Positions 5,298 to 46,615 of a DNA stretch of 50,158 nt are shown in pieces (the first letter of the stretch is position 1; each line of letters opens with the position of its first letter). The notes under the pieces were generated by a model. That model did no database searches. It saw only the letters and a list, made by a program, of their open reading frames with translations, and was not told where the DNA came from. The DNA comes from Clostridia bacterium (GTDB taxonomy: Bacteria > Bacillota > Clostridia > Oscillospirales > Acutalibacteraceae). The translations under genes were made by a program, and so were the position numbers. The stretch spans positions 1 to 50,158 of the forward strand of contig JAFTWB010000016.1 of NCBI GenBank assembly GCA_017465505.1, given 5' to 3'.

Positions 5298-5374
5298 TCG
5301 TTAACCACGGGTTTGCCACCCGAGGGCAACTCCGCCTTTTGACCGTTAGCCACGGTGGGCAATTCCGCCTTTTG
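5298..5374 (+). repeat. GTTAGCCACGG-type repeat, two tandem units
   Basis: Two head-to-tail units, 5298-5341 (diverged) and 5343-5374, both end in TCCGCCTTTTG. The second reads CCGTTAGCCACGGTGGGC, then AATTCCGCCTTTTG. The copies at 2321-2354 and 32679-32722 share this core. An open frame crosses the region on the minus strand, but it is built of repeat sequence, has no ribosome site and is not called. Confidence 0.75.
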
Positions 5375-5404
5375 AAAGTAAAGATGAAACTTTAACCAAT
5401 CATC

Positions 5405-5621
5405 AACGGCGGAAAACAACAAAGTTGAAAATTGAAAGTTGAAAGTTGAAAATTTCAGGTCGCTTTGCTCCGATTATTAAATAAAATAGGATTGCACGCA
5501 GTATGCGTGCCACATTAACGTTTGCCAATGGCAAACACATCATTTGCGTAGCATACATCATTAGCATAAGCGACATCATTTCGCCACTGGCGAAACATCA
5601 CCCCGACCATCGGTCGGCTGT
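5405..5621 (+). repeat. Modular hairpin array A with conserved 5' block
   Basis: The first half (5405-5512) is about 108 bp, contains tandem GTTGAAA-type motifs and is nearly identical to 46263-46366. It ends in the hairpin GCACGC-AGTAT-GCGTGC. Then come palindromes GTTTGCC-AAT-GGCAAAC (5520-5536), TGC-GTA-GCA, TCGCC-ACT-GGCGA (5581-5593) and CCGACC-ATC-GGTCGG (5603-5617), joined by CATCATT-type linkers. No gene lies between 5014 and 5631. Confidence 0.8.
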
Positions 5622-14659: not shown

Positions 14660-14795
14660 GCCTGACGCCACGGTTGGCTCAGGCGTGATGTATTGCTTAC
14701 GCAATATGATGATGGCTGACACCATATGATGTTTTGCTTCGCAAAATGATATATTTGCCCATAGCAAATATTAAGGGTCGCTTCGCTCCAGATTT
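14657..14795 (-). repeat. Modular hairpin array B between response regulator and kinase
   Basis: It begins with TGAGCC (14657-14662, including the TGA stop) pairing with GGCTCA (14676-14681). Then come ATTGC-TTAC-GCAAT, ATGG-CTGACA-CCAT, TTTTGC-TTC-GCAAAA and ATTTGC-CCATA-GCAAAT, joined by ATGATG-type linkers (the reverse complement of CATCAT). It ends in GGTCGCTTCGCTCC, a module also found in array A. Confidence 0.8.
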
Positions 14796-21864: not shown

Positions 21865-21879
21865 GTTATAAAACATAAG

Positions 21880-22110
21880 CGTTGAACGGGAGAAGTAGTT
21901 GACAAACGGCACTTCACAGAGATTGCGGTAGGAGCTGAAATCCGCAAAAGAGTCGGCAACGAAATGCACCCGTGAGCTTCCTCGGGGAAAGTTTTATCGA
22001 GTATCTGAGGTCGGTTGACTCCGCTAAAGGTCATAAAGGGCTGTGTTTTTTTACATAGCTGAATCTGGGTGGAACCACGGTATAGCCGTCCCTTTGTGGG
22101 ACGGCTTTTT
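21880..22110 (+). promoter_or_regulatory. T-box riboswitch, cysteine-specific
   Basis: A tRNA-sensing leader. The T-box core TGGGTGGAACCACGG is at 22066-22080, followed by a terminator (AGCCGTCCC 22084-22092 / GGGACGGCT 22098-22106 and a T-tract). In the stem I specifier region GAAATGCACC, TGC at 21965-21967 is a Cys codon followed by A. The TGGA bulge pairs with the UCCA end expected for tRNA-Cys (discriminator U). Uncharged tRNA-Cys would stabilise the antiterminator and switch on cysE-cysS. Confidence 0.94.
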
Positions 22111-22147
22111 ATATTTTCATCGGAAATATAAAAAGCCGAACCACAAC

Positions 22148-22222
22148 ATTTGCCATTGGCAAATACATCATTTTGCTTGAGCAAAATATCATTTCTCATT
22201 GGTCATTGGCAAACATCATTTA
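22148..22222 (+). repeat. Modular hairpin array C in the cys operon leader
   Basis: ATTTGCC-ATT-GGCAAAT (22148-22164) and TTTTGC-TTGA-GCAAAA (22171-22186), then an imperfect unit, with ACATCAT/CATCATT linkers. It lies after the T-box terminator and before the cysE ribosome site, so it is transcribed in the mRNA. The remaining bases to 22262 show only the AATATGGAGG ribosome site. Confidence 0.75.
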
Positions 22223-22901: not shown

Positions 22902-24316
22902 TACTTTACAATACCCTCGGCCAGCAGAAGCAGGAGTTTGTCCCCTTTGAAGAGGGCAAGGTAAGAATGTATACCTGCGGCCCTACAGTTTATCACTTTG
23001 CTCACATCGGAAATCTTCGCACATATATTATGGAAGACGTCCTGGAAAAGCACCTGCGTTACTCAGGCTACGACGTTAAGAGAGTTATGAACATCACAGA
23101 CGTAGGCCACCTTTCCAGCGACGCCGACACAGGCGAGGACAAAATGCTCAAGGGTGCAAAGCGTGAGCACAAGACAGTTCTGGAAATCGCTGATTTCTAC
23201 ACAAAGGCTTTCTTCTCCGACTGTGATAAGCTCAATATCAAAACTCCTGACGTTGTTGAGCCTGCTACTCAGTGCGTTCCCGAGTTTATCGAAATGGTTC
23301 AGACTCTTCTGGAGAAAGACTACGCCTACATTTCAGAAGGCAATGTTTACTTTGACACCTCAAAGCTTGACAACTACTACGTTTTCGGCAATCAGAGCGA
23401 GGACGATTTAGCCGTTGGTGTTCGTGACAGCGTTACCGAGGACACCGCAAAGAGAAATAAAACCGACTTCGTTTTATGGTTTACAAAATCCAAGTTTGAT
23501 GACCAGGAGCTTAAGTGGGACAGCCCTTGGGGCAACGGTTACCCCGGCTGGCACATTGAGTGCTCTGCCATAAGCGTTAAGCACCTGGGCGGATATCTTG
23601 ACATCCACTGCGGCGGCGTTGACAACGCTTTCCCACACCACACCAACGAAATCGCCCAGAGCGAGGCCTACCTCGGCCACAAATGGTGTAACCACTGGTT
23701 CCACGTTCTTCACCTCCTTGACTCCACAGGCAAAATGAGCAAAAGTAAGGGCGAGTTCCTTACAGTTTCGCTTTTAGAGAGCAAGGGCTACAATCCCCTG
23801 GCTTACCGTATGTTCTGCTTACAGAGCCACTACCGCAAACCCCTCACATTTACTTACGAAAGCCTGGATAACACCACCCTTGCCTACAACAAGCTTGTGG
23901 CAAAAATCGCAAATATGACCCCAGAGGGTGAGGTTGACGAAGCTAAAGCTCAGGAGTACATCAGTAAGTTTAAAGAGGCACTGGACAACGACCTTAACAC
24001 CTCTCTTGCTCTTACCTGCGTTTATGATGTTCTCAAGGCTGACACAAACGACGCCACAAAGCTTTACCTCATCAAAGATTTTGACAGAGTCTTAAGCCTT
24101 AACCTTATTGAAGAGGCTGAGAAAATCAAAGCCGAAAAGGCAGAAAAAACTTCATCTGTTGACGCAGAAAAGGTAGAAGCTCTTATTGCTCAGCGTACTG
24201 AAGCAAGAAAGAACAAGGACTGGGCAACTGCCGACAGAATCCGTGACGAACTCAACGCAATGCACGTTGTAGTAACCGACACACCCGAAGGAATCAAGTG
24301 GCACGTTGCAAATTAA
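22898..24316 (+). CDS. cysS: Cysteinyl-tRNA synthetase
   Basis: 472 aa class I synthetase. HIGH-like motif AHIGN near residue 38; zinc-binding residues include Cys28 in TCGPTVY, Cys in HIECSAIS and the His/Glu of [15 protein letters not shown] motif in [10 protein letters not shown] near residue 280. The C-terminal helical and anticodon-binding domain carries a Lys/Glu-rich stretch before [20 protein letters not shown]. The stop codon TAA (24314-24316) lies inside the palindrome AATTAACC-TAG-GGTTAATT that opens the downstream hairpin array. Confidence 0.97.
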
Positions 24317-24447
24317 CCTAGGGTTAATTTGCGGTGATGTATCGTCTTTGACGATGTGATGTCGCTGCCGCTAATGATGTTTTGCTAACGCAAAATGATG
24401 TATTTGCCACAGGCAAATTATGGTGGTGGCACGTTTCACGTGCGATT
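24311..24447 (-). repeat. Modular hairpin array D after cysS
   Basis: AATTAACC-TAG-GGTTAATT (24311-24329, includes the cysS stop), ATCGTC-TTT-GACGAT (24341-24355), TTTTGC-TAAC-GCAAAA (24380-24395), ATTTGCC-ACA-GGCAAAT (24402-24418) and GCACGT-TTC-ACGTGC (24429-24443), joined by GTGATGT/ATGATGT linkers, so oriented opposite to array A. The last hairpin with GATT after it corresponds to the GCACGC/GCGTGC module of arrays A and F. Confidence 0.8.
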
Positions 24448-32685: not shown

Positions 32686-32722
32686 CCAACCGTTAGCCAC
32701 GGTGGGCAGTTCCGCCTTTTGG
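32679..32722 (+). repeat. GTTAGCCACGG-type repeat, copy 3
   Basis: A partial unit CCGTTAGCC (32679-32687) is followed by a full unit CCGTTAGCCACGGTGGGC with TTCCGCCTTTTG. The first unit contains the stop codon of the DUF6062 gene. A further AACGGCGGAGTC block follows, as in the copy at 5.4 kb. Confidence 0.75.
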
Positions 32723-32774
32723 CAGGTTTCATCTGACTTTTAACTACATCAACGGCGGAGTCAAAAGTAAAACT

Positions 32775-32906
32775 GTCCGTAAGGACAATACCACTGCGTA
32801 GCAATACCACTGGCAAAGCCAATACCACTGCGAAGCAATACCACTGGCAAAGCCAATACCACTCGCCAAAGGCGAAACATCATTCCGACCAAAGGTCGGC
32901 TGTGCC
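32775..32906 (+). repeat. Modular hairpin array E with AATACCACT linkers
   Basis: Palindromes GTCC-GTAA-GGAC, GC-GTA-GC, GGC-AAA-GCC, GC-GAA-GC, GGC-AAA-GCC and CGCC-AAA-GGCG are separated by five exact copies of AATACCACT (32787, 32803, 32821, 32837 and 32855). The last linker switches to AAACATCATT before CCGACC-AAA-GGTCGG (32885-32899) and CTGTGCC, the same end as array A. No gene is present in 32686-32979. Confidence 0.88.
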
Positions 32907-40242: not shown

Positions 40243-41133
40243 ATGAAAAAGTTATTTTCTGCACTGATTATTTCTGCACTCTTACTCTCTCTCGGCACGG
40301 TCATTGCCTTTGCCGACAACAACACCACCGAAATTATCCCCGGCAATTTTTACAAGCAGGGTGATGTTAACCTTGACTCAAAGGTAAACATCAAGGACGC
40401 CACTCTTATTCAGAAGCACCTTGCTAAAATCAAGGAAATTTCAGAGCTTCAGCTCAGCCTTGCCGATGTTGACAGCAAAAAGGGCGTCAACGTAAAAGAC
40501 GCAACCTACCTTCAGAAGTGGCTGGCAGGCATTGTAGAGGAGCTTCACAAGCCTCAGGGTGATTCTCAGCCTTCAACAATCACAATAAGTACCAATGAAA
40601 CAGGCGAGCAGACAACTGCTTCTTCTGTAAAAGAAAGCCAATCTGCCGAAGCTACCACTGTTAAGCCAAGTTCAGTTGCTACAAAGCCTACTGAGACGAC
40701 CACTGTAAAACCAAGTGCAATTGTCACTGACCCTACCGAAGTTACTACTATTAAGCCAAGTGCAATTGTCACTGACCCTACTGAGGCGACTACTGTTAAG
40801 CCAAGTTCAATTGTCACCGACCCTACCGAGGCTACCACTGTTAAGCCCAGTACAGTTGTCACCGACCCTACCGAGGCTACTACTGTTAAGCCCAGTACAA
40901 TTGTCACCGACCCCACCGAGGCTACCACTGTTAAACCCAGTACAATTGTCACCGACCCCACCGAGGCTACTACTGTTAAGCCCAGTACAATTGTCACCGA
41001 CCCTACCGAGGCTACCACTGTTAAGCCCAGTACAATTGTCACTGACCCTACCGAAGCTCCAACCACAGAGGCAACCAAGCCAACCCGTGACCCCAACAAG
41101 CCTATTGAGCTTCCTTTTATTCCTGTAAAATAA
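40243..41133 (+). CDS. Secreted type I dockerin protein with Thr/Pro repeats and IELPFIP C-terminus
   Basis: 296 aa. A signal peptide (1-24, cleavage near AFA-DN) is followed by a type I dockerin (about 38-98) with two EF-hand-like repeats, GDVNLDSKVNIKDATLIQKHL and ADVDSKKGVNVKDATYLQKWL in approximate form. Residues 135-269 are nine tandem 15-residue repeats (consensus TEATTVKPSTIVTDP) that resemble a cell-surface or glycosylated linker. The protein ends PIELPFIPVK, like the lipoprotein at 36167. No enzyme domain is attached and no cohesin is visible in the window. A dockerin with only a repeat spacer could be a structural cell-surface protein. Confidence 0.88.
   Translation: MKKLFSALIISALLLSLGTVIAFADNNTTEIIPGNFYKQGDVNLDSKVNIKDATLIQKHLAKIKEISELQLSLADVDSKKGVNVKDATYLQKWLAGIVEELHKPQGDSQPSTITISTNETGEQTTASSVKESQSAEATTVKPSSVATKPTETTTVKPSAIVTDPTEVTTIKPSAIVTDPTEATTVKPSSIVTDPTEATTVKPSTVVTDPTEATTVKPSTIVTDPTEATTVKPSTIVTDPTEATTVKPSTIVTDPTEATTVKPSTIVTDPTEAPTTEATKPTRDPNKPIELPFIPVK
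40645..41049 (+). repeat. Nine tandem 45-bp repeats inside the dockerin gene
   Basis: Nine in-frame 45-bp units encode residues 135-269. The later units are nearly identical (IVTDPTEATTVKPST) and the first ones more divergent, as expected for slippage or unequal exchange at the 3' side. The repeat opens long frames in other phases and on the other strand; these are side effects. Confidence 0.95.
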
Positions 41134-46262: not shown

Positions 46263-46455
46263 AACGGCGGGAAATAACAAAGTTGAAAATTGAAAGTTGA
46301 AAGCTGAAAATTTCGGGCTGCCTTGCTCCGATTATTAAAAAAATAGGATTGCACGCACAGCGTGCCACCGCAATGTTTGTGTTTACACAAACACATCATT
46401 TTGTGTCAGCAAAACATCATCAGCATAAGCGACATCATTTCGTCAAAGGCGAAAC
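46263..46455 (+). repeat. Modular hairpin array F with conserved 5' block
   Basis: The first 104 bp (46263-46366) is nearly identical to 5405-5512 of array A (GTTGAAA-type tandem motifs, TTGCTCCGATTATTAAA, ATAGGATTGCACGCA hairpin). Then come GTTTGTG-TTTA-CACAAAC, TTTTGTGTCAGCAAAA, AGCATAAGC and TTTCGTCAAAGGCGAAA, joined by CATCATT linkers. Confidence 0.8.
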
Positions 46456-46460
46456 ATCTT

Positions 46461-46597
46461 TCCCACCAAGCTCCCTCCGAGAGGGAGCTTGCAACCGTAG
46501 GTTGACTGAGGGAGAGTGCGAACTTTTAAAATACATCTTCTCAATAATGTTCGCACTCTACTTCCACCACTTCGTGGTCCCCCCTCCTCTCGGATAA
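46461..46597. repeat. Fold-back element (MITE-like)
   Basis: Several stems in a row: AGCTCCCTC (46469-46477) / GAGGGAGCT (46481-46489); CAACC-GTA-GGTTG; AGAGTGCGAAC (46513-46523) / GTTCGCACTCT (46549-46559); ACCAC-TTC-GTGGT (46566-46578); and an outer TCCGAGAGG / CCTCTCGGA pairing. It directly follows array F. An open frame across it is not convincing. Confidence 0.7.
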
Positions 46598-46615
46598 AGG
46601 TTTTTAACGCAAATG

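Follow-up and report, generated by a model that had tools for sequence, protein, structure and literature searches.

The closest named relatives of the repeats described here are the S23p/intervening-sequence (IVS) elements of 23S rRNA. According to the available part of the published account, the Coxiella IVS occupies helix 45 of 23S rRNA, is called selfish, has a decaying open reading frame (ORF), and carries two or three copies of the heptameric repeat GACAGAT just upstream of this S23p ORF (PMC4990558). The same excerpt reports the S23p protein of Xanthomonas as a pentamer (PMC4990558). Heptameric repeats whose origin was left unexplained in the available portions of two further papers have been described as direct repeats of GGGAATC in Xanthomonas and Nostoc (PMC4692102) and as repeats of TAACTGA in Beggiatoaceae (PMC4679880). 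In the former source, again as far as its text was available, two Xanthomonas genomes contain 70 and 75 cases of paired, close convergent repeat sites (PMC4692102). The terms "four helix" and "S23" are absent from the main texts of PMC4692102 and PMC4679880 in their accessible form, and within the accessible portions of the open-licence PMC literature, no paper was found that joins PF05635 genes outside rRNA to intergenic arrays or heptamers.

Our analysis concerns a stretch of 50,158 nucleotides (the window), which is the whole of contig C14 from the 1.9 Mb draft genome of a gut-dwelling Clostridia bacterium (G000, 84% complete). A preliminary description of this DNA had reported six hairpin arrays for which it knew no named family; the S23p/IVS elements turn out to be a partial one. 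An IVS lies within 23S rRNA and is excised by RNase III, whereas the window arrays are intergenic, and an IVS has short-unit repeats beside an ORF, whereas the window arrays show such repeats without an ORF. The arrays look like dispersed leftover ends of a rarely noted form of mobile DNA with a single small four-helix-bundle gene, so far familiar mostly from insertions in rRNA genes.

Results

Hairpin arrays in the window

At 5.4, 14.7, 24.4, and 46.4 kb of the window, the heptamer CATCATT (or ATGATG from the opposite strand) alternates with short palindromes. All of the window arrays are intergenic and have one arm each, with an inverted second arm around an ORF being present at none of them. 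The arrays and two neighboring heptamer runs are as follows:

5424..5451, plus strand: four tandem GTTGAAA/ATTGAAA heptamers, then a GGTCGCTTTGCTCC hairpin; probably what is left of a heptamer-type arm
5494..5617, plus strand: one-armed hairpin array; CATCATT at 5538, 5556, and 5574, CATCAC at 5596
14685..14771, minus strand: one-armed hairpin array; plus-strand GTGATG/ATGATG linkers at 14685, 14706, and 14726
22148..22220, plus strand: short degenerate array; CATCATT at 22166 and 22214
24308..24443, minus strand: one-armed hairpin array; GTGATG/ATGATG linkers at 24334, 24356, 24374, and 24395
32774..32899, plus strand: array with AATACCACT linkers at 32787, 32803, 32821, 32837, and 32855; final unit CATCATT
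46282..46302, plus strand: GTTGAAA/ATTGAAA heptamer, three copies in tandem; probably what is left of a heptamer-type arm
46351..46454, plus strand: one-armed hairpin array; CATCAT linkers at 46394, 46415, and 46433

The array at 5494-5617 contains the palindromes GCACGCA-GTA-TGCGTGC, GTTTGCC-AAT-GGCAAAC, TTTCGCC-ACT-GGCGAAA, and CCGACC-ATC-GGTCGG together with two weak units, and the heptamers at 5424-5451 closely resemble the stretch immediately upstream of a PF05635 gene in a genome of the same genus (L199). The 22.2 kb array separates a T-box leader from the beginning of a serine acetyltransferase-like gene (21873-22220), and the 24.4 kb array is located downstream of a cysteinyl-tRNA synthetase gene. 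A PF05635 match is absent from the window, as the three matches in G000 all sit on other contigs; one of these resident genes (C5:24547) has an arm with the same AATACCACT linker as the 32.8 kb array.

To count hairpins, we required a stem of at least 5 and a loop of 3 to 6 and compared each array with 200 dinucleotide shuffles. Three of the six arrays exceeded every shuffle, namely those at 5.4 kb (4 hairpins vs. a shuffle maximum of 2), 24.4 kb (5 vs. 4), and 32.8 kb (3 vs. 2). Two equaled the maximum (14.7 and 46.4 kb, each with 3 vs. 3), and the 22.2 kb array alone was not above chance (2 vs. 3). The plus-strand RNAs of the arrays yielded minimum free energy (MFE) z-scores of -2.5 to -5.2, and CATCATT is mildly enriched in the window (15 occurrences vs. 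a shuffle mean of 6.69, with 15 reached in 1 of 100 shuffles). The preliminary claim of six arrays with one architecture therefore holds insofar as the arrays are real, except that the 22.2 kb example does not go beyond chance and the 32.8 kb example differs in its linker. CATCATT had also been described as near-constant, but the 32.8 kb array has five AATACCACT units and a single CATCATT. Rather than one constant linker, there are several linker families, each of which is largely constant within an element. The reading as a known RNA was set aside, because an Rfam scan of the six arrays returned no family at its gathering score. A CRISPR reading was likewise set aside; instead of a constant palindromic repeat with variable non-palindromic spacers, the linkers are constant and the palindromes variable, which is the CRISPR arrangement reversed, just as originally stated.

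Several other features were observed in the window. A 45-nt tandem repeat with nine register-shifted copies (40553-41108) lies within a plus-strand ORF (40243-41133), and a group II intron Rfam match is located at the contig end (50021-50097). A second dispersed element, CCGTTAGCCACGGTGGGCAATTCCGCC...AACGGCGG, is often found beside arrays (5300-5411, 2284-2351, and 32689-32760 of the window; also L394/L395), and sequences resembling it occupy three sites in the relative G026 where the window carries arrays. A CTCCCTCCGAGAGGGAGC..GACTGAGGGAG repeat adjoins the 46.4 kb array (46470-46600) and is also present beside an array at L007.

The arrays are a dispersed repeat in the host genome

A search of G000 with CATCATT-N-CATCATT-N-CATC identified 37 exact, partly overlapping matches at ~18 loci vs. 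0 for the reversed pattern, which rejects a chance level of occurrence. Among 19 loci inspected, 17 largely keep one slot order: a GCACG..CGTGC- or GCAGG..CCTGC-like head, TTTG..CAAA, TTTGC..GCAAA, AGC..GC, and TCGCC..GGCGA, often followed by CCGACC..GGTCGG; the remaining two are of the core type described below. Thus, the palindromes do differ in sequence, as had been noted, but they are not freely variable. From the genome-wide matches and the common slot order, we can conclude that the arrays are a dispersed repeat rather than six independent curiosities. One contig (C1) contains three tandem array copies at a spacing of ~320 nt.

Each of the three PF05635 matches in G000 has a hairpin array upstream bearing its own linker, which is CATCATT on C1, AATACCACT on C5, and TACTTCAT on C11. 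PF05635 is the sole Pfam hit of the resident protein, for which a match to PDB chain 2rld_A was obtained at 1.2e-29. After merging the listed pattern hits into loci, the same genome was found to carry ~42 gene-less arrays with these linkers, consisting of ~19 with CATCATT, ~14 with AATACCACT, and ~9 with TACTTCAT, the last including some loci with two linkers only and having no chance control because TACTTCAT reads the same backwards, which voids the reversed-pattern control. ATATCGC is a fourth linker, for which G000 has orphan arrays and no resident gene (the genome being 84% complete); an intact element with this linker was found in G038, and matches to the ATATCGC pattern include many non-array hits within the same genus.

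The design recurs in relatives as well. Across 59 genomes, G000 included, the CATCATT pattern was matched in 18, of which 11 hold real arrays as judged by eye. All 11 also have a PF05635 match, vs. 40 of the 59 overall. Of the 35 congeners of G000, three contain CATCATT arrays (G010, G020, and G025), whereas the AATACCACT pattern, with 30 matches in G000, has none in any of them. In G038, G046, and G056, 10 loci with AATACCACT arrays were checked, and none contains a PF05635 ORF.

Three proteins of G026, the nearest relative found, have 96%, 95%, and 89% identity to those of G000, but the genome is further away in DNA than the best two of them suggest (76-86% identity in blocks syntenic with 0.5-28 kb of the window). 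The 32.8 and 46.4 kb sites fall outside the G026 contig, hence four sites are comparable, and arrays are absent from G026 at all four of them (5.4, 14.7, 22.2, and 24.4 kb). At the 5.4 kb site, 345 nt of the window around the array are replaced by 53 nt in G026, while the other three sites contain other sequences, all with a CCGTTAGCCACGGTGGGC-like motif; the 22.2 kb site retains a head-like hairpin and is devoid of linkers. Neither the CATCATT nor the AATACCACT pattern was matched in G026, and its one PF05635 match is partial and below cut-off. Dispersed similar copies that are absent from the orthologous sites of a relative (4 of 4, at 76-86% DNA identity) are a MITE-like trait, although at this level of DNA identity the site differences need not be recent.

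Two-armed arrays and their predicted fold

Genomes from other families of the order carry CATCATT in two-armed arrays of ~150-190 nt (core type), which are laid out as a terminator, an AATGATG arm, the core GGCAAACATCGCATCATT, and a CATCATT arm. The core pattern is present in at least 118 stretches of named genomes, and the 80 titles among the matches listed are mostly Clostridia/Oscillospiraceae MAGs, many of them from herbivore gut, with a few chance hits elsewhere. At least two further linkers were found at 108 of 120 core-pattern places among the matches listed; the other 12 were left out before the core-type count, even though at least L108 looks real and is cut by a contig end. The core pattern was also observed in eight viral-collection stretches (L420-L427), three times in L421, which could be host DNA.

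The core-type elements have a directional position relative to tRNAs. Among the matches listed, 43 of 87 elements with enough left flank have a tRNA <200 nt upstream on the same strand, and one further element has a tRNA on its other side, such that 43 of the 44 near a tRNA are downstream of it on the same strand; overall, these loci contain ~1 tRNA per 7.5 kb. Folding of the terminator palindromes back into the tRNA end was considered and rejected, as it held in only 4 of 34. A -10-like hexamer is located ≤60 nt after the array in 49 of 91 among the matches listed, which is a raw count without a control.

For 63 core-type elements among the matches listed, stem pairing in 12-nt slots was 0.88 vs. 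0.63 with shuffled partners (maximum 0.69), while the 14-, 17-, and 18-nt slots exhibited 0.77, 0.72, and 0.71, respectively, each exceeding every shuffle. A sample of 25 elements had a mean RNA MFE z-score of -5.1, and 76% of their left-linker nucleotides were predicted to pair with right-linker nucleotides. Because left linkers pair with right linkers in this prediction, the predicted fold of the two-armed element is a ladder. Such linker-linker pairing is to be expected from complementarity and does not prove function. The beads-on-a-string RNA that was originally proposed fits the one-armed copies of the window, but not their more complete two-armed relatives, for which the ladder is predicted.

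Linker type tracks the relatedness of an adjoining four-helix-bundle protein

Directly after many core-type arrays is an ORF of ~117 aa (start MKENKL) that corresponds to PF05635 (23S_rRNA_IVP) and TIGR02436 (four helix bundle protein). Among the matches listed, 85 core-type loci had ≥600 nt downstream, and a PF05635 ORF was found ≤400 nt downstream on the same strand in 24 of them (5 partial), whereas it was missing within 400 nt in the other 61. Most core-type copies are therefore gene-less. An integron-like gene-cassette reading was also considered, given the promoter-like site and the varied genes after core-type arrays, and it was dropped because the immediate downstream gene is PF05635 in 24 of 85.

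In the 59 genomes, PF05635 genes are often behind arrays with other linkers, such as CTTCAC, GATTTCAT, ATTTAGCT, AATATAACT, CAATTCAT, and more. A 6-mer repeated at least 5 times within 280 nt upstream was found for 40 of 93 PF05635 genes vs. 15 of 186 other ORFs from the same loci, in a comparison in which some PF05635 genes were entered twice (L195 and L255 are one gene; L208 appears twice) and the control ORFs are often preceded by coding DNA. The remaining 53 of 93 fall below this mark and, by reading, many of them are preceded by simple heptamer runs of short length. When 55 PF05635 genes with arrays were compared pairwise, the same linker was shared by all 151 pairs at ≥80% protein identity, 105 of 136 at 70-80%, 34 of 157 at 60-70%, 3 of 452 at 50-60%, 20 of 558 at 40-50%, and 0 of 31 at <40%. 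Likewise, in the set found via the protein family, the nearest-neighbor protein had the same linker in 17 of 28 cases, whereas permutation gave 3.0 on average and at most 10. Linker type thus tracks protein relatedness, an agreement that would fit recognition, although much of it would also be expected from common descent alone. Three Clostridial elements (L228, L231, and L428) have inverted hairpin-bearing arms on either side of the ORF and link the heptamer-arm and hairpin-arm styles.

Complete elements in plasmids, rRNA, and RNase P RNA genes

A PLSDB plasmid search with a PF05635 protein returned 23 records, 21 of them cyanobacterial, and all 23 were analyzed. The typical layout is a 7-nt tandem array upstream of the PF05635 ORF and its reverse complement downstream. 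The inverted arms exceeded all 40 shuffles at 17 of the 23 loci and failed to do so at 6, with the best upstream repeat lag being 7 in 18 loci and 8 in 3. At 11 of 18 independent sites, the element's own downstream arm was the single best match, while at 7 it was not. By reading, the Nostoc plasmids contain reciprocal sites: where L297, L329, and L332 carry an element, L304 has none, and vice versa; L332 also has, again by reading, an ORF-less copy with the same heptamers nested inside its PF05635 gene. No clear target-site duplication was apparent in the Nostoc filled/empty pairs. Three PF05635 elements on cyanobacterial plasmids (L294, L296, and L301) lie between CRISPR-associated genes (cas10/cmr3, cas6/cas4).

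PF05635 elements were also found inside 23S rRNA at six loci and within a bacterial RNase P RNA gene at two near-identical loci (L278 and L280), where the RF00010 match spans the insertion; inverted heptamer arms can be read at L278. Among seven rRNA and RNase P RNA loci inspected, both arms are readable in six, and the second arm is absent at L286.

Discussion

The arrays of the window are probably non-autonomous, ORF-less arms of mobile elements that encode a small four-helix-bundle protein (PF05635/TIGR02436), and the mobility of these elements is well supported. PF05635 genes often adjoin such arms, related proteins tend to have the same linker type, related Nostoc plasmids differ in which sites are filled and which are empty, and the orphan arrays of G000 share linkers with its three resident genes, while a relative is without arrays at comparable sites.

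A complete element would have two arms, both made of repeats of a 7-9 nt linker that is specific to the element, with one arm reading as the reverse complement of the other. Linker copies follow one another directly in the cyanobacterial and rRNA elements, whereas in these Clostridia varied palindromes separate them. Owing to the inversion of its arms, the transcript could fold into one long stem or ladder in which linker pairs with linker and the palindromes protrude, and this fold would explain both the constant linkers and the palindromes that drift by paired changes. We infer that the PF05635 protein or a partner recognizes the folded linker arms, perhaps as a pentamer like that of Xanthomonas S23p, and that intact elements may supply the protein in trans to orphan arms. 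Orphan arrays cannot fold as a ladder in cis because they are one-armed, and the constancy of their linkers may be caused by recent copying. New copies would enter transcribed gaps, such as those after terminators and tRNAs or between cistrons, as well as rRNA loops. No recombinase or transposase was identified for the elements; a reverse transcriptase acting in trans is a guess based on the similarity between Avd and L263, a member of the wider family.

Other origins were weighed against this one. The palindromes might be REP/REPIN-like sequences moved by a Y1 (RAYT/IS200-type) transposase, as they are short and intergenic, G000 has two good Y1_Tnp matches, some Y1_Tnp match occurs in 6 of the 11 CATCATT-array genomes, and an E. 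coli RAYT is reported to recognize single-stranded REP DNA in the available part of PMC3733652. We nevertheless regard this origin as highly improbable, since the linker repeats while the palindromes differ, and by reading, the bases of the array palindromes have no GTAG or CGTC tag and are flanked by CATCATT or AATACCACT instead. The conserved part is the linker, and the preliminary view of the arrays as the opposite of REP elements was accurate in this respect. Furthermore, a Y1_Tnp match is absent from array-bearing G020, G046, G050, G054, and G058, and from G038 despite its AATACCACT/ATATCGC arrays; some of these genomes are incomplete, although completeness reaches 98-99% in G038, G050, and G054. 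Nor is it at all likely that the arrays were created in place by tandem-repeat slippage and hairpin-templated mutation, with the PF05635 association reflecting repeat-rich gaps near those genes. Constant-linker repeats could expand by slippage, and the three tandem copies on C1 at ~320 nt would suit such a process. However, the succession of distinct hairpins is largely the same in 17 dispersed copies, the inverted arms on the two sides of the ORF match, filled and empty sites exist in the Nostoc plasmids, and the array-less sites of G026 would be left unexplained.

A further explanation is that the arrays are selected intergenic modules of regulatory or mRNA-stabilizing RNA, spread by recombination and unlinked to a mobile gene. 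Their stable hairpins, the directional placement downstream of tRNAs, and the one array located between a T-box leader and its gene all speak for a regulatory role. We still judge it very unlikely, because G026 has no array at any of the four comparable sites, CATCATT arrays were found in 3 of the 35 congeners and none of these 35 has AATACCACT arrays, Rfam matches are absent at the arrays, and the inverted arms around an ORF remain unaccounted for.

If the arrays are indeed the orphan arms of PF05635 elements, a broader proposal can be entertained more tentatively. These elements could possibly constitute a large mobile superfamily, so far overlooked, whose sole gene encodes a small Avd-like four-helix-bundle protein, with lineage tags in the inverted arms, a folded RNA or single-stranded DNA read by the element's own protein, and no recognizable recombinase. 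It would include the 23S rRNA IVS, the RNase P RNA inserts, the cyanobacterial heptamers, and the arrays of gut Clostridia. Three questions are thereby joined, concerning the role of S23p four-helix-bundle genes, the origin of heptamer and hairpin arrays, and the spread of rRNA intervening sequences. Each is testable, because every element bears a distinct tag that its own protein alone should recognize.

Among known systems, the Avd protein of diversity-generating retroelements is resembled through L263, which hits bAvd (PF22296) at 5e-14, above cut-off, and NF033474 below cut-off, whereas the resident G000 protein hits PF05635 alone in Pfam. REP/REPIN sequences are similarly small intergenic palindromes and probably non-autonomous mobile DNA, but in the available text they form a conserved palindrome family with a GTAG/CGTC tag, as opposed to the conserved linker and varied palindromes of the arrays (PMC3733652). 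The heptamers of Xanthomonas, Nostoc, and Beggiatoaceae are, in the accessible parts of their descriptions, 7-nt units that are dispersed and mostly intergenic, and this unit size is the same as that of the PF05635 arms in cyanobacterial plasmids. Lastly, the Coxiella IVS, to the extent that its published account was available, agrees in the name of its protein family (ribosomal S23, four-helix bundle) and in having short repeats before the ORF, while the arrays described here differ from it in being intergenic, with element-specific linkers, interposed palindromes, and many ORF-less one-armed copies.
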